64,000 nt of DNA from Achromobacter sp. UMC46 (GTDB lineage: Bacteria; Pseudomonadota; Gammaproteobacteria; Burkholderiales; Burkholderiaceae_B). The position numbers were made by a program, and so were the translations under genes. How positions within the stretch are numbered: the first letter of the stretch is position 1; every line of letters starts with the position of its first letter. The stretch spans positions 62,001 through 126,000 of the forward strand of contig NZ_LZZS01000019.1 of assembly GCF_014170335.1 (NCBI RefSeq), in the 5' to 3' direction. Shown here piece by piece: positions 31,502 to 39,933 of the stretch. The notes below the pieces were generated by a model, which worked only from the letters and a program-made list of their open reading frames with translations, did no database searches and had not been told where the DNA came from.

Positions 31502-32224
31502 ATGCGCCAGATCATCTTTGACACGGAAACCACCGGACTGGACCCTGCACAGGGCCACCGCATCGTCGAGATCGGCTGCGTGGAAATGGTCAACCGGATG
31601 TCCACGGGCAATAACCTGCACATCTACCTGAACCCGGACCGCGACAGCGACCCCGAAGCCTTGGCGGTGCACGGGCTGACGACGGAATTCCTGTCCGACA
31701 AACCGCGCTTCGCCGACGTGGCGGACGAGTTCGTCAAGTTCATCCAGGGCGCGGAACTGATCGCGCACAACGCCGCGTTCGACGTGAAGTTCTTCAACGC
31801 CGAATTGGCCAAGACGGGCCGCGGCCCGATCACCGAATATTGCGAGACGGTCACCGATTCGCTGCTGCATGCGCGGTCGCTGTTCCCCGGCAAGCGCAAT
31901 TCGCTGGACGCTCTGTGCGACCGCTTCGGCATTTCCAACGCCCACCGCACGTTGCACGGCGCATTGCTTGACTCGCAGTTGCTGGCCGAGGTCTGGCTGG
32001 CCATGACCCGCGGCCAGGACGCGCTGCTGATCGACGTGGACGACAACGATGGCGCCGGCAGCGACGGCATCGTGCTGGCCAAGTTCGACGCGTCGGGGCT
32101 GGTGGTGGTGAAGGCCGGCGACGACGAGCTTGCCGAGCACGAAACCTACCTGGCCGCCCTGGACAAGTCGGTGGGCGGAGAGTGCGTGTGGCGCAAGCTG
32201 GATGCGCCGGTGGCGGCCGCATAA
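31502..32224 (+). CDS. dnaQ: DNA polymerase III epsilon subunit (3'-5' proofreading exonuclease)
   Basis: The 240-residue protein has the DEDDh exonuclease motifs: ExoI FDTETTGLDP (Asp7, Glu9), ExoII IAHNAAFDVKFF (Asp near residue 99), and ExoIII HGALLDSQLLAEVW (His and Asp near residues 155-160). A short C-terminal segment, which in E. coli contacts the alpha subunit, is also present. It starts three bases after the RND permease stop, an unusual upstream neighbour for a replication gene. A tRNA-Val gene follows. Confidence 0.96.
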   Translation: MRQIIFDTETTGLDPAQGHRIVEIGCVEMVNRMSTGNNLHIYLNPDRDSDPEALAVHGLTTEFLSDKPRFADVADEFVKFIQGAELIAHNAAFDVKFFNAELAKTGRGPITEYCETVTDSLLHARSLFPGKRNSLDALCDRFGISNAHRTLHGALLDSQLLAEVWLAMTRGQDALLIDVDDNDGAGSDGIVLAKFDASGLVVVKAGDDELAEHETYLAALDKSVGGECVWRKLDAPVAAA

Positions 32225-33624: not shown

Positions 33625-35136
33625 TCAACGCGGTTTGGCGTGCTCCAGCAGCGTCAATCCTTCCTCGGCGCCGTCGTGCAACGGCACGGTCAGGCCGCGC
33701 CGGGCGTTGGCCACCGATACCTGGACGCCTTGGGGCGAGCCTGCGGCCAGCAGGTCCTGGCCCGTCTGGTACACCGCCCGCACGACCAGCAGCGCTTCAT
33801 CGCGCGTCAGGTCGGCCGTGGTGAGCAGCAGCGCCGCCGTGCCGATGGTGGGGATCGGGTCCGGCTGGTTGGGGTAGGTGCCCGCCGCGATCGTAAGGGG
33901 CATCAGCGCGGTGTCGCCGCCCGCGGTGAGCGTCTTGATGGCGGCCGGGTCCAGCGGCAGCAGCTTCAGCTGGGCCTGGGTCAACGCGTCGCGCAGCGGC
34001 GTGGCGGGCACGCCGATCACCTGTGCGGCGGCGTCCACGGTACCGGCCTTCAGGGCCGGCAGCGACGCCGCGAATGGCGTGTCGGCGACCTTGTAGTCGC
34101 GGCCGGCCTGCAGCCCGTGGGCCGCCAACACGTTTTCCAGCGTGGCACGGACCGCCGATCCTTCCGGCCCCAGCGCGATCGTCTTGCCCTTCAGGTCGCG
34201 CACGGCGCGCAGTGCCGGGTCGTCGCGGACCACGATGTGGACCAGTTCGGGGTACAGGCTGCCCAACGCGCGCAGCCCCACGAACGGGCCTTGCGCCGCG
34301 AACGGGCCGCTGCCTTCATAGGCCAGGCGCGCGGTGTCGGCTTGCGCCAGGCCCACCACGGCGTCGCCGCTGCGCAGCAGCGCGATGTTCTCGGCGCCGC
34401 CGCCGGTGATCAGCGGCGTCACGCGGATCTGCTGGGAACGCCCGACGGCGGCAAGCGCGCGGGCAAAGGCCACGTACTCGCCGCGGTCGGGGCCGCCGGC
34501 CAGCGGGTAGCCCTGCTGCATCCGCGCCAGCCGGCCATTGATGCGGGATACCGAACGCTCCAGCTCCTGCTGCACGACGTGCTGCGCCGTGCTGGACGCG
34601 CTGTAGGCGACGGAATGGGTGATCTGGTCCAGCGTGTCCAGCAATTGCCGCGTGACCGGCGGCGGCGCGCCGGTATCCAGCGACGGCGCTTCGGCCGCTT
34701 TGAAACCGGCAGGGGTCACCAGCCTCCAGGCGTCGCCTTCCTGGCGATAGATGGCGCTGGCGTGCGCGACGATGCGGTCGCCCGCCTGGTTGCCGCTTGA
34801 TTTCACGCCGCTGATGCTGCGCGGGCCCGCGCCCAGCAGCGTCACCAGCGAAGCCGCGCCCGGCTGGTCCCAGGCGCCCAGCGCGATGTCACGGCTCAGG
34901 TCCAGTTCGACGTCGTAATAGACCACGCGGCGGGTTTCGCCGGCGGGCGCGTTGCTGTCCGCCGCCGAGCCCATGCGCTTGATCTCGGCGATGCGGAAGA
35001 GGCCTTGGCCATAGGTGGTGTTCAGGCCGCGTTCGACGTCGGCGCGCAGGGCGTCGGTATCGGGCGCGCGCCCGCAAGCCGCCAGAACCAGGCATAGCCC
35101 GATCAGGGCAAGGCGTTTGAGGAGAGGCAGGCCCAT
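33625..35136 (-). CDS. TAXI family solute-binding lipoprotein with an extra N-terminal domain
   Basis: The 503-residue product starts at ATG 35136, preceded by GGGGGGAT and two bases after the gltS stop. Lipobox LAAC puts the anchor at Cys21. Residues 22-165 form a region not seen in ordinary TAXI receptors (TYGQGLFRIAEIKRMGSA, VYYDVELDLSRDIALG). After a helical linker comes the TAXI domain, about residues 225-490 (VTPLITGGGAENIALLRSGD, VGLAQADTARLAYEG, LKGKTIALGPEGSAVR, ATLENVLAAHG). TAXI proteins normally feed a TRAP transporter; no TRAP membrane genes are here. Coupling to gltS suggests the symporter is its partner, which is inference. Confidence 0.85.
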   Translation of the reverse strand: MGLPLLKRLALIGLCLVLAACGRAPDTDALRADVERGLNTTYGQGLFRIAEIKRMGSAADSNAPAGETRRVVYYDVELDLSRDIALGAWDQPGAASLVTLLGAGPRSISGVKSSGNQAGDRIVAHASAIYRQEGDAWRLVTPAGFKAAEAPSLDTGAPPPVTRQLLDTLDQITHSVAYSASSTAQHVVQQELERSVSRINGRLARMQQGYPLAGGPDRGEYVAFARALAAVGRSQQIRVTPLITGGGAENIALLRSGDAVVGLAQADTARLAYEGSGPFAAQGPFVGLRALGSLYPELVHIVVRDDPALRAVRDLKGKTIALGPEGSAVRATLENVLAAHGLQAGRDYKVADTPFAASLPALKAGTVDAAAQVIGVPATPLRDALTQAQLKLLPLDPAAIKTLTAGGDTALMPLTIAAGTYPNQPDPIPTIGTAALLLTTADLTRDEALLVVRAVYQTGQDLLAAGSPQGVQVSVANARRGLTVPLHDGAEEGLTLLEHAKPR

Positions 35137-35138
35137 GG

Positions 35139-36347
35139 TCACATCCCCCCCACGAACGGCAACGAGATCAGCGTCGTCAGCACGATTACGTTCAGGATGT
35201 CGACCAGGAACGCGCCCGTGACCGGCACCACGATGAAGGCTTCGGGCGCGGGGCCGTGGCGGCGCGTCAAGGCCTGCATGTTGGCGATGGCGGTGGCGGT
35301 GGCGCCCAGCCCGAAGCCGCAGAAGGCGGCCGACATGATGGCGGCTTCGTAATCGCTCTTGAGCATCCGGAACACCACCCAGGAGGCGTACAGCGCGCAG
35401 AACAGCGTCTGCACCACCAGCATCAGGGCCAGCGGGCCGGCCAGGCGCGCCACGCTGGACAGGTCCAGCGTCATCATCGTCATGCCCAGGAACAGCGACA
35501 GCGAGATCGTGCCGATGATCTCTGTCGCGCGGTCGTCCAGCTTCAGGCCCAGGCGCACGCCGGCGTTGCGGATCAGCACGCCCGTCGCCAGGCACCACAA
35601 GAAATTGGGCAGGCTGACCGGGGCGCCTTCCACCAGCATGGCGAGATAGCCGCCGACGACCAGGCACACGAAGGCGGCGGTCAGCGACACGATGAACGAG
35701 CCGGCCGTGGCGGGCGCGACGTCTTCGGCCAGGTCCGGCGCCGCGTGCCCCGGCTGGGCCGCGTGGTCCAGGCTGCCGGCCAGCTTGTGGCGGCGCATGA
35801 TCCATTCCGCCACCGGGCCGCCCACCACGCCGCCCAGCACCAGGCCCAGCGTGGCCGAGGTCATCGCCAGCGCCATGACGTCCTGGATGTTGTTGAAGTC
35901 GGCGAAGCGCGTCGCATAGGCCGCGCCCGTGCCGTGGCCCCCCACCAGCGTGATGGTGCCGCCCAGCAGGCCCATCAACGGATGCATGTCCAGCAGCCAG
36001 GCCATGCCCAGGCCCACGGCGTTCTGCAACACCAGGAAGGGGATCAGCGCCAGCAGGAAGGCGATCAGCCGCGGGCCGCCCTTGGCCAGCAACTTCAGGT
36101 TCGCGGTCAGTCCGATGCAGCCGAAGAACAGCAGCAGCAAGGTGGGCTTGATGCTGGTTTCCATCGAAATCGACACGCCGCCCCACGTCGACAGCAAGTA
36201 GGCCAGCACGGCGAACAGCAGGCCGCCCACGATCGGGTCGGGGATGCTGTAGCGCGACAGGATGCCTATCCGCGAGGTCAGCAGCCGGCCGATGACCAGT
36301 ACCAGGCAGCAGGCAAGCAGGGATTGAACGGGCGAAAGCGAAATCAT
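35139..36347 (-). CDS. gltS: Sodium/glutamate symporter family protein
   Basis: The 402-residue membrane protein matches GltS in length and sequence: SIPDPIVGGLLFAVLAYLLS near residue 34, GGHGTGAAYATRF near residue 150, and a mirrored second half with CGFGLGATATAIANMQAL near residue 350. About ten helices in two inverted repeats are expected. GltS imports glutamate with sodium in the inner membrane. ATG 36347 is used, as the upstream 20 codons are Pro/Arg-rich and not membrane-like. It is the first gene of a two-gene operon with the TAXI lipoprotein. Confidence 0.93.
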   Translation of the reverse strand: MISLSPVQSLLACCLVLVIGRLLTSRIGILSRYSIPDPIVGGLLFAVLAYLLSTWGGVSISMETSIKPTLLLLFFGCIGLTANLKLLAKGGPRLIAFLLALIPFLVLQNAVGLGMAWLLDMHPLMGLLGGTITLVGGHGTGAAYATRFADFNNIQDVMALAMTSATLGLVLGGVVGGPVAEWIMRRHKLAGSLDHAAQPGHAAPDLAEDVAPATAGSFIVSLTAAFVCLVVGGYLAMLVEGAPVSLPNFLWCLATGVLIRNAGVRLGLKLDDRATEIIGTISLSLFLGMTMMTLDLSSVARLAGPLALMLVVQTLFCALYASWVVFRMLKSDYEAAIMSAAFCGFGLGATATAIANMQALTRRHGPAPEAFIVVPVTGAFLVDILNVIVLTTLISLPFVGGM

Positions 36348-37141: not shown

Positions 37142-37291
37142 GCACGCGACTTCATAGTTTTCGCCGGGCGGATCCCTAGAATTCACTCGAGTTCCAGCAG
37201 GCATAAGGGCGCGCCGCATTTCATGAAAATTCGACGAGGTCCTGCGCATACTGTTTGGCATAGCGTCCTGTACTACGAGCGAAAGCGTCCT

Positions 37292-38344
37292 ATGCACATC
37301 CAATTCCGGTCCGATCCGATCCCGCCGCAAGCGTTGACCAAAGCGTATCCCCTGGAGTCGCTCTGGTCTTCGAAGGCTGCGGCAGTGCCGTATGACACGT
37401 GCGTGACGTGCGTCATTCCCTGCCTGAACGAGGCCGAGAACCTGCGCATCCTGCTGCCTTTGCTGCGCAGCCGCCTGTCCGCCCTGTGCACCAGCTGGGA
37501 AATCATCGTGGCCGACGACGGCAGCACGGACGGCACCGAAGCGCTGATGGCCGAATGGACGCAGCACGACGGTTTCCGCTATGTGCAGCTGTCGCGCAAT
37601 TTCGGCAAGGAAGCCGCGCTGAGCGCCGGCCTGGAAGCCGCCACCGGCAATGCCGTGATCTGCCTCGATGCGGATCTGCAGCACCCGCCCGCGTTGATCG
37701 AGCAGATGCTGGCGCGCTGGGCCGCCGGCGCTGAAATGGTCTATGCCGTGCGCGAAACCCGCGTCGACGAATCCTGGTTGAAGCGTTCCGGCGCACGCTG
37801 GTTCTACAAGTTGTTGAGCAGCGCGCGCGGCGTGAACGTGCCGGCGCACGCGGGCGATTTCCGTTTGATGGACCGCGGCGTGGTGGACGCGCTGATCGCT
37901 TTGCCCGAACGCACGCGCTTCATGAAGGGCCTGTACGCCTGGGTCGGCTTCAAGGGTGAAGCGCTGCCGTATACCCCCGACGAACGCCTGCATGGCGATA
38001 GCCGGTTCAGCGGCCTGCGCCTGTTCCGGCTGGCGCTGGATGGCCTGACCGCATTCACGACCTGGCCCTTGCGCCTGGTCAGCCTGGTTGGCGTCGCCTT
38101 CGCCTTGCTGGCGATGTCCTACGCCGCCTATCTGGTCGGCGATTACCTGATGTCGGGCAACCCCGTGTCGGGCTGGACCACGATTGTCACCGCCGTGCTG
38201 TTCTTCGCCGGCGTCAACCTGATTTCCCTTGGGGTGGTGGGCGAGTATGTCGCCCGCATCTTCGACGAGGTGAAGGGCCGTCCGCTGTACGTCGTGCGCC
38301 GGCGCCAGGGCGTGGCCTCGCGCGCGGGCAAGGCGACGGGCTGA
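37292..38344 (+). CDS. lgmA: Undecaprenyl-phosphate glycosyltransferase, LgmA/ArnC/GtrB-like
   Basis: The 350-residue GT2 enzyme has CVIPCLNEAENLRILLPLL, the metal-binding DDGSTDGT and DADLQHPP motifs, SRNFGKEAALSAGLEAATGN and HAGDFRLMDR. Two C-terminal membrane helices follow (residues about 260-340), as in DPM1/GtrB/ArnC enzymes. It should load a sugar on undecaprenyl phosphate at the cytoplasmic face. Next to an ArnT-like transferase, a GtrA-like protein and a ChbG/HpnK deacetylase it matches the Bordetella lgm locus, where LgmA makes the GlcNAc-lipid precursor. The symbol rests on context. Confidence 0.82.
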   Translation: MHIQFRSDPIPPQALTKAYPLESLWSSKAAAVPYDTCVTCVIPCLNEAENLRILLPLLRSRLSALCTSWEIIVADDGSTDGTEALMAEWTQHDGFRYVQLSRNFGKEAALSAGLEAATGNAVICLDADLQHPPALIEQMLARWAAGAEMVYAVRETRVDESWLKRSGARWFYKLLSSARGVNVPAHAGDFRLMDRGVVDALIALPERTRFMKGLYAWVGFKGEALPYTPDERLHGDSRFSGLRLFRLALDGLTAFTTWPLRLVSLVGVAFALLAMSYAAYLVGDYLMSGNPVSGWTTIVTAVLFFAGVNLISLGVVGEYVARIFDEVKGRPLYVVRRRQGVASRAGKATG

Positions 38345-38346
38345 CG

Positions 38347-39933
38347 ATGGCCGGCGCCTCCCTGACCCCGGCGGGTTCCGAATGGAACCCGCGGGCGGGG
38401 CGGTTCTTGCTGGCCGTTGGCCTGTGGCTGGCGTTCCTGGCCTGGATCCGTCCGCTGACCCTTCCTGACGAAGGCCGCTACGCGGGCGTCGCCTGGGAGA
38501 TGCTGCGCAGCGGATCGCACGCGGTGCCGTTGCTGGACGGCATGCCGTATTTCCACAAGCCGCCGCTTTATTACTGGCTGGCCGAGCTGTCCTACTCGAT
38601 GTTCGGCGTCAACCCCTGGGCGGCGCGGCTGCCGTCGTGGCTGGCGGCCTGGGGATCGGCGGCCGGACTCTACTATTTCGTTCGCCGCTACCGCGATGGC
38701 GCAGCCGCCGCGCTGACCGTGCTGATCCTGTCGACGATCCCGTTCTTCTATGGCGGTGCGCAGTTCGCGAACCTGGACATGCTGGTGGCTGGCTTGGTTA
38801 CGCTGTGCGTGCTGGCTGCCGTGGATACGGTGTTGCGCGCCGAAGGCGGCCAGCCCTATCGCGGGATGTCCCTGGCCGCCTCGGTGTTGGCCGGTTTGGC
38901 GGTATTGGCCAAGGGGCTGATCGGTCTGGTGCTGCCCGGCGCCATCCTGTTGATCTGGATCGTCTGGCGCCGAAGCTGGCGGGGCCTGGCCGCGCTGCTG
39001 TGGCTGCCGGCGCTGGCGTTGTTCGCTGCCGTGACCGTGCCTTGGTTCGTGCTGATGCAGCTGCGCTTCCCCGGTTTCTACCACTACTTTTTCGTCTATC
39101 AGCACTTCCAGCGCTTTGCGGCCAGCGGATTCAACAACGCGCAGCCGTTCTGGTTCTACCTGCCGGTTGTGGCGGGCCTGAGCCTGCCGTGGTCGTTGTG
39201 GGGCGGGGGCATCATGCGCCGCGCGTTCTGGGAAGAAGGGCCTATGCGCGACCTGCGCCGCCTGGCGCTGGTCTGGTTCGCGGTGGTGATCGCATTCTTC
39301 TCGCTGCCGCAATCCAAGCTCGTGGGCTACGTGCTGCCCGCGTTGGCGCCGCTGGCCTTCCTGTTGGCCGAAGTCATCCTTGGCGCGTGGCGCGAATCCA
39401 GCGACCCCGTGTCGCCGCGGCTGGTGCGGCTTAGCGCCGCCGTCGCCGCCGGCATCTGCGTCGTGGCGGTGGGGGTGGCGGCCAACAACGTGCGGGGCAG
39501 CGCCGCGCCGCTGGCGGAAGCGGTCAGGGCGCAAATACGGCCAGCAGACACGTTCGTCGCCCTGCACACCTATCCCTTCGACCTGGCGTTCTACACGCGC
39601 TCGCCGCGTCCCATGTGGGTGGTGGATGACTGGCTGGACCAGGAAGTGCCGGTGCGCGACAACTGGCGCAAGGAACTCTATGACGCGGCGGCGTTCGATC
39701 CCGCCGCAGGCAAGCAACTGCTGGTAGGCTCCGCCGAATTCAGCGCCAGGCTATGCGCGGCGCCTGACGGCGCCCGTTACTGGGTGTGGGGCACCAGTTC
39801 GGACGGCCCGGTGTACGCGCCGTTGCGGGGCCTGGAGCCCGTTGCTGGCAGCGTGAAGTACGTGATGTGGCGGGTGGACGTGGACGAGGCCTTCAGGCAG
39901 CGGGCTTGTGGCGGAACGCCCAAAGCCGGCTAG
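38347..39933 (+). CDS. lgmB: ArnT/PMT-like lipid A sugar transferase, LgmB-like
   Basis: The 528-residue multi-span protein begins two bases after lgmA. The first periplasmic loop holds the PMT-family signature LPDEGRYAGVAWEM and PYFHKPPLYYWL, the DE pair being the usual catalytic acid region. Around 10-12 helices are followed by a soluble periplasmic C-terminal domain (from about residue 395). ArnT-type enzymes move an amino sugar from undecaprenyl phosphate to lipid A phosphates on the periplasmic side. In Bordetella LgmB performs this with glucosamine, making the outer membrane less negative. Confidence 0.82.
   Translation: MAGASLTPAGSEWNPRAGRFLLAVGLWLAFLAWIRPLTLPDEGRYAGVAWEMLRSGSHAVPLLDGMPYFHKPPLYYWLAELSYSMFGVNPWAARLPSWLAAWGSAAGLYYFVRRYRDGAAAALTVLILSTIPFFYGGAQFANLDMLVAGLVTLCVLAAVDTVLRAEGGQPYRGMSLAASVLAGLAVLAKGLIGLVLPGAILLIWIVWRRSWRGLAALLWLPALALFAAVTVPWFVLMQLRFPGFYHYFFVYQHFQRFAASGFNNAQPFWFYLPVVAGLSLPWSLWGGGIMRRAFWEEGPMRDLRRLALVWFAVVIAFFSLPQSKLVGYVLPALAPLAFLLAEVILGAWRESSDPVSPRLVRLSAAVAAGICVVAVGVAANNVRGSAAPLAEAVRAQIRPADTFVALHTYPFDLAFYTRSPRPMWVVDDWLDQEVPVRDNWRKELYDAAAFDPAAGKQLLVGSAEFSARLCAAPDGARYWVWGTSSDGPVYAPLRGLEPVAGSVKYVMWRVDVDEAFRQRACGGTPKAG

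Follow-up and report, generated by a model that had tools for sequence, protein, structure and literature searches.

A TAXI Lipoprotein Encoded Beside gltS in Achromobacter: Linkage, Glutamate Pocket, and Endosymbiont Variants of a Probable TAXI-GltS Transporter

The Gene Pair and Its Surroundings

The window, a stretch of 64,000 nucleotides of DNA from Achromobacter sp. UMC46, carries on its minus strand a pair of adjacent genes, gltS and a gene for an elongated TAXI lipoprotein. The gltS gene (35139..36347) runs from an ATG start to a TGA stop and encodes a sodium/glutamate symporter of the ESS family with 402 residues. The protein is placed in the GltS family by curated cut-offs, with 385.8 bits for TIGR00210 (cut-off 310.75) and 365.2 bits for PF03616, and is the only GltS match in the genome; no sequence relative was found among PDB entries at E 1. 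The second gene, P0001 (33625..35136, minus strand), encodes a TIGR02122 protein of 503 residues, the counterpart of BP0403 of B. pertussis in architecture and length, as these are given in the available part of PMC12344293. Among window frames of at least 80 residues, there is one TAXI protein and one GltS protein.

The sequence-only reading had placed the TAXI lipoprotein two bases from gltS, and this is borne out: on the same strand, two bases lie between the gltS stop and the ATG at 35136. Translation could also begin at an in-frame GTG overlapping the stop codon of gltS, which would give a protein of 505 residues that begins MTMGLP. The window and 25 of 25 Achromobacter loci all have the ATG two bases past the stop; the overlapping start is found in only some of them. 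Since the signal peptide of BP0403 likewise begins MTM (PMC12344293, available part), either start may be the one in use. The close named relatives of the lipoprotein are 82–93% identical and all come from Achromobacter (25 of 25 loci), in a search of named genomes that detects close relatives only. A scan for promoters and terminators gave no promoter and two terminator-like sites, against 1.7 expected.

The reading was equally right that no TRAP membrane gene lies nearby: none is found among the window frames of at least 80 residues when these are compared with a fused TRAP membrane protein taken from this genome. Outside the window, the genome yields 15 DctM matches; among those listed, none is on the same contig. 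The locus thus shows the arrangement of the TAXI-GltS class, with gltS directly beside a TAXI gene and no TRAP membrane gene. About 1.4 kb beyond the pair, with small genes between, a convergent gene on the plus strand (31502..32224) encodes what we take to be a dnaQ-like exonuclease. The start of its product, MRQIIFDTETTGLDP, resembles the starts of genes downstream of the pair in L172–L176, and in reduced endosymbiont genomes a dnaQ-like gene directly follows the gltS/TAXI pair. Two adjoining genes at 37223–39933 resemble glycosyltransferases of the ArnC and ArnT types and presumably might serve in lipid A modification.

Architecture of the Lipoprotein

The lipoprotein begins with a signal peptide (35074..35136, minus strand) that ends in the lipobox LAAC with Cys21. 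The lipobox cysteine is present in 54 of 55 aligned elongated TAXI sequences, the fifty-fifth being cut by a contig end. An N-terminal α/β domain follows at about residues 22–141 (34714..35073, minus strand), then a helical segment at about residues 142–207 (34516..34713, minus strand), and finally the TAXI substrate-binding domain at about residues 208–503 (33628..34515, minus strand). The last of these is identified by TIGR02122, which covers residues 210–491 and scores 190.5 bits (cut-off 84.35), and by PF16868, and it has solved relatives in 9oz4, 8s4j, and 1us4. The N-terminal domain and the helical segment together make up the 190–200 or so residues ahead of the TAXI domain, a part of the protein that the sequence-only reading did not mention. 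No Pfam or NCBIfam family was found for these residues; the N-terminal domain matched no Pfam family over cut-off and nothing among PDB sequences at E 10, and the N-terminal part gave no match on plasmids.

Structure models describe the parts with unequal confidence. When residues 22–145 were modelled alone, the mean pLDDT was 86.6. The model of the whole lipoprotein, for which only the window and Achromobacter sequences served as input, has a mean pLDDT of 47.4, and its fold search was informative only for residues 295–375, a subdomain of the binding protein. The two helices of the middle segment (residues 160–178 and 182–209) come from this low-confidence model. Fold searches with the N-terminal domain gave no Foldseek match at E ≤ 0.001 and a best Z of 6.0, the matches being weak and tied. 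Among these, PilO (2rjz) ranks second in Foldseek with E 0.09 and aligns over 85 residues with Z 5.5 and an rmsd of 4.4, level with ARC6, affimers, and other folds; in BP0403, the N-terminal domain has been likened to the PilO core fold and the helical segment is the dimerisation region (PMC12344293, available part). The protein of the window thus has the three parts of the elongated TAXI-GltS lipoproteins, as judged from its 503 residues, its lipobox, the TAXI match at 210–491, and the N-terminal model, with the helical part taken from the poor model only.

The Glutamate Pocket

In BP0403, Tyr219 and Gln263 lie in the L-glutamate pocket, and their mutation lowers the affinity 167- and 250-fold (PMC12344293). 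The corresponding codons in the window are those of Tyr221 (34474..34476, minus strand), which is also the equivalent of Tyr45 in VcGluP, and Gln265 (34342..34344, minus strand), which corresponds to Gln93 of VcGluP and aligns with a glutamine of 8s4j. The offset of two residues from BP0403 is the same for both and for the lipobox cysteine, and the pocket of the TAXI-GltS class is present. Tyrosine is found in 55 of 55 elongated TAXI sequences, and at position 265 there is glutamine in 48 of the 55 GltS-linked TAXI sequences, that of G039 included, and proline in seven from endosymbionts; the alignment includes near-copies and one identical pair (L025, L125). Among the alignable TRAP-linked TAXI sequences, 17 of 22 have the tyrosine and 12 of 22 the glutamine. 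Replacement of the glutamine by alanine lowers glutamate affinity 990-fold in VcGluP (PMC11574862) and 250-fold in BP0403 (PMC12344293), according to the available parts of both papers. PMC11574862 puts the share of TAXI sequences with this glutamine at 54% and suggests that the residue may differ according to ligand. The sequence-only reading had named glutamate or a dicarboxylate as the substrate, and glutamate is the likelier of the two.

Linkage of the Pair Across Genomes

Adjacency was counted across genomes, the check that the sequence-only reading had named, and the pairing is not unique to this genome. Of 250 genomes sampled from the family, 67 have the N-terminal domain. In 66 of these it comes immediately after gltS, in the same orientation and with a gap of –5 to 176 nucleotides between match ends, the 67 GltS rows being those with at least 44% identity to the GltS of the window, a line set after the list was viewed and with the next row at 42%. 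The sixty-seventh genome has both genes cut at contig ends. GltS occurs without the N-terminal domain in 46 of the 113 GltS-bearing genomes of this sample. In a sample of 81 genomes of the family, GltS is found in 37 and a TAXI gene stands beside gltS in 21 of these; the N-terminal domain is found in exactly those 21.

Across the phylum, 46 of 299 genomes have a GltS match, and the pair occurs outside the family of the window in one of 45 (G341); all matches over cut-off were inspected there, three under the family cut-off were left aside, and 30 of the 48 non-window loci reach only 1500 bases to each side. The phylum search for the N-terminal domain gave two strong matches, the window genome and G341. 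A third match, in G326 (E 9.9e-4), was taken as chance. In all, the pair was found in 15 genera within the family and in a single relative outside it.

The 21 paired genomes hold 24 further TAXI matches over cut-off. Of these, 23 are ordinary TAXI genes, and for all 23 a gene for a TRAP membrane protein lies within 9 kb, with gltS near none of them; the twenty-fourth match is a regulator fusion with neither a TRAP gene nor gltS nearby. A candidate for an elongated TAXI protein without gltS, in G070 (contig C15), is in fact a regulator fused to a TAXI-like domain. We take this fusion (L141:2524-4185) to be an IclR-type DNA-binding regulator with hydantoinase-like genes alongside; it is a possible use of the TAXI fold in a cytoplasmic sensor.

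In a GltS tree of 86 rows, from which seven loci (L103–L106, L122–L124) were omitted, the 22 paired sequences form one clade with support of 96/94, and all 64 unpaired rows fall outside it. Because the paired GltS proteins are a single clade, the linkage may reflect one old event rather than repeated selection for pairing. The counts point to an old linkage that does not depend on TRAP genes and that, as far as these samples go, is restricted to a single GltS clade. G045, which bears the genus label of the window, has neither gltS nor the lipoprotein, as if both had been lost together; G016, G073, and G538 have a second, distant GltS (37% identity to that of the window) besides the paired one; and in G055 (L102:4986-6208) gltS is split into two overlapping frames beside a whole TAXI gene.

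The Pair in Reduced Genomes

Nine reduced genomes of 0.7–0.9 Mb (G007, G048, G078, G039, G438, G468, G419, G453, and G399) have no DctM match, in a search for which 7 of 14 control genomes give a match. Eight of the nine keep a TAXI gene beside gltS, and this is their sole TAXI match. In these genomes the TAXI protein thus has no detectable TRAP carrier to serve. In G468 (L173:4827-6433), a real frameshift or a sequence error breaks the TAXI gene into two frames inside the part for the binding domain, and the two TAXI matches of this genome are pieces of one gene. Eight of the nine genomes bear one genus label, and G039 belongs to another genus. Of six stretches measured in three of these endosymbiont genomes, five have a GC content of 29.5–32.4%; the stretch of G438, a genome that is probably Ca. 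K. sorsogonicusi, has 22.5%. The genus of eight genomes is taken to be Ca. Kinetoplastibacterium, the endosymbionts of trypanosomatids, for which a GC content of 30–33% is given in PMC5632650 (available part).

Two variants of the lipoprotein are found in this genus. In the first, position 265 is proline in all seven endosymbiont binding domains (L132, L135, L137, and L173–L176), and Tyr221 is kept. The dN/dS of the binding domain, obtained by a simple counting method that is approximate in AT-rich DNA, lies between 0.02 and 0.08 in the six endosymbiont pairs; in every one of these the binding domain has the lowest value among the four parts, with one N-terminal value missing. In four Achromobacter pairs the dN/dS of the domain is 0.07–0.26. 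Constraint is thus not weaker in the endosymbionts than in Achromobacter, and decay was rejected as the cause of the Gln265Pro change. Since the dN/dS of the binding domain is so low, the change may be read as a re-tuning, perhaps to a glutamate-rich host cell or to another ligand.

The second variant is found in G438, a genome of 741,697 bases. Here a lipoprotein of 142 residues (L172:5468-5896) that consists of the N-terminal domain only is encoded 11 nucleotides past the end of an intact gltS. The protein lacks the helical and binding parts, and a dnaQ-like gene follows some 35–40 bases on. No TAXI match was found in this genome even at E 1. The frame of 142 codons is open, as in none of 5000 single-base shuffles, which makes a dead remnant less likely. 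Identity to the window is 34% for the N-terminal domain and 61–62% for gltS, compared with 56–58% and 65–67% in other members of the genus. As the N-terminal domain has diverged more than gltS, its constraint is possibly relaxed in G438. Because G438 keeps GltS and has lost the binding domain, GltS of the paired clade may work without that domain: either it can dispense with it, or the remnant is a relic that is being lost. No description of the Gln265Pro change or of the N-terminal remnant was found in the literature covered, which includes few subscription papers; the word "symporter" is absent from the available parts of two endosymbiont papers (PMC5632650, PMC3846528).

Relation to Known Transport Systems

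The TAXI-GltS pairing is already known, having been published for B. pertussis in 2025. BP0403 was described in August of that year as a lipoprotein of 503 residues with three domains that forms a dimer and binds L-glutamate with a Kd of 180 nM; gltS (BP0402) lies directly upstream with a short overlap, and there is no TRAP gene (Commun Biol, PMC12344293, available part). The same paper reports adjacent TAXI and GltS genes in other bacteria, some of ordinary size, and TAXI-GltS fusions in Lachnospiraceae, and it models the docking of a BP0403-type protein on GltS. The pair of the window resembles BP0402/BP0403 in gene order, tight coupling, the 503-residue lipoprotein of three parts, the pocket tyrosine and glutamine, and the lack of a TRAP membrane gene. 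Against the published description of BP0403, no meaningful difference is seen; the ATG of the window may leave a gap of two nucleotides where BP0403 overlaps.

Two other systems share one half of the pair each. VcGluP of Vibrio cholerae, a TRAP transporter of the TAXI type (PDB 8s4j; PMC11574862, available part), has the same kind of substrate-binding domain with a glutamate-binding tyrosine and glutamine. The partner of VcGluP is a fused DctM-type protein, whereas that of the window is GltS, and the lipoprotein of the window adds the N-terminal and helical parts. The window protein thus belongs to the receptor family of the TAXI-type TRAP transporters (TIGR02122), and its operon lacks a DctM-type membrane protein. 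With the stand-alone GltS proteins of the ESS family, the window GltS shares its carrier family and presumably sodium/glutamate symport; unlike them, it belongs to a clade whose 22 sampled members are all encoded beside a TAXI gene.

Proposed Mechanism and Alternatives

The pair most probably forms a TAXI-GltS transporter in which a binding protein assists a secondary carrier, a reading to which we assign a probability of about 0.78. That part of the sequence-only reading stands as the best account of the locus; the same architecture is described in PMC12344293 (available part), so the pair is not the undescribed system that it was first thought to be. In the proposed mechanism, the lipoprotein would be placed on the outer face of the inner membrane, where its TAXI domain, to judge from the conserved pocket residues, would take L-glutamate from the periplasm. 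The helical segment probably holds the lipoprotein as a dimer, as is shown for BP0403 only, and the N-terminal domain would provide one of the contacts when this dimer docks on a dimer of GltS, by analogy with BP0403 and the model in PMC12344293. GltS would then carry glutamate into the cell together with sodium, as is established for its family (PMC12344293), through an elevator movement, with an affinity above that of GltS alone as the likely outcome. Both proteins are members of their families, their linkage is exclusive and of long standing, and the pair survives where no TRAP membrane protein is detectable. The conserved linkage, together with the genomes that have no TRAP carrier, argues that GltS and the lipoprotein function together, whether or not the ligand is handed over.

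Against this reading stand the frequent occurrence of GltS alone, the seven endosymbiont proteins without the key glutamine, and the absence of the binding domain in G438. The chief alternative is that GltS works unaided and that the lipoprotein, though inherited with it, does something other than hand over substrate, for instance sensing glutamate, buffering it in the periplasm, or stabilising GltS. It gains from the statement in the available part of PMC12344293 that most GltS proteins operate without a partner, from the call in the same paper for experimental verification of functional coupling, hand-over included, and from the N-terminal domain that persists alone beside gltS in G438. We nevertheless consider it unlikely, as the glutamate pocket of the binding domain is conserved and the dN/dS of this domain is 0.02–0.08 in six endosymbiont pairs, and as TAXI and GltS are fused in Lachnospiraceae (PMC12344293).

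It is far less probable that the TAXI protein is an orphan receptor for a TRAP membrane protein encoded elsewhere. The 15 DctM matches of the window genome would allow for a partner in trans, but the nine genomes that keep the pair, or what remains of it, and have no DctM match contradict this for the reduced genomes, and the 23 of 23 ordinary TAXI genes each have a TRAP gene of their own nearby. Adjacency by chance or plain operon packing with no functional link can practically be set aside: a spacing of two bases is common in operons, yet the 66 adjacent pairs among 67, in 15 genera and one relative in another family, refute it.

The TAXI-GltS transporter reading leaves room for different roles of the lipoprotein parts. 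As the Gln265Pro change is found in seven of seven conserved domains and G438 keeps the N-terminal domain alone, this domain might be the true GltS subunit that holds or gates the carrier, with the TAXI domain as an accessory open to re-tuning or loss when glutamate is abundant. This is put forward tentatively, as a possibility about which we are more doubtful than confident.

Significance

The secondary transporters known earlier to use a binding protein were the TRAP and TTT systems only, according to the available part of PMC12344293, and firm evidence for a third such class would bear on why elevator-type carriers recruit binding proteins. To the published system, the present analysis adds genome counts, the grouping of the paired GltS proteins in a single clade, the cases with no TRAP carrier, and two variants in endosymbionts that make the role of the N-terminal domain testable. 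The endosymbionts, one with its binding domain missing and others with a changed pocket, offer natural variants for the role of that domain and for whether GltS runs alone.
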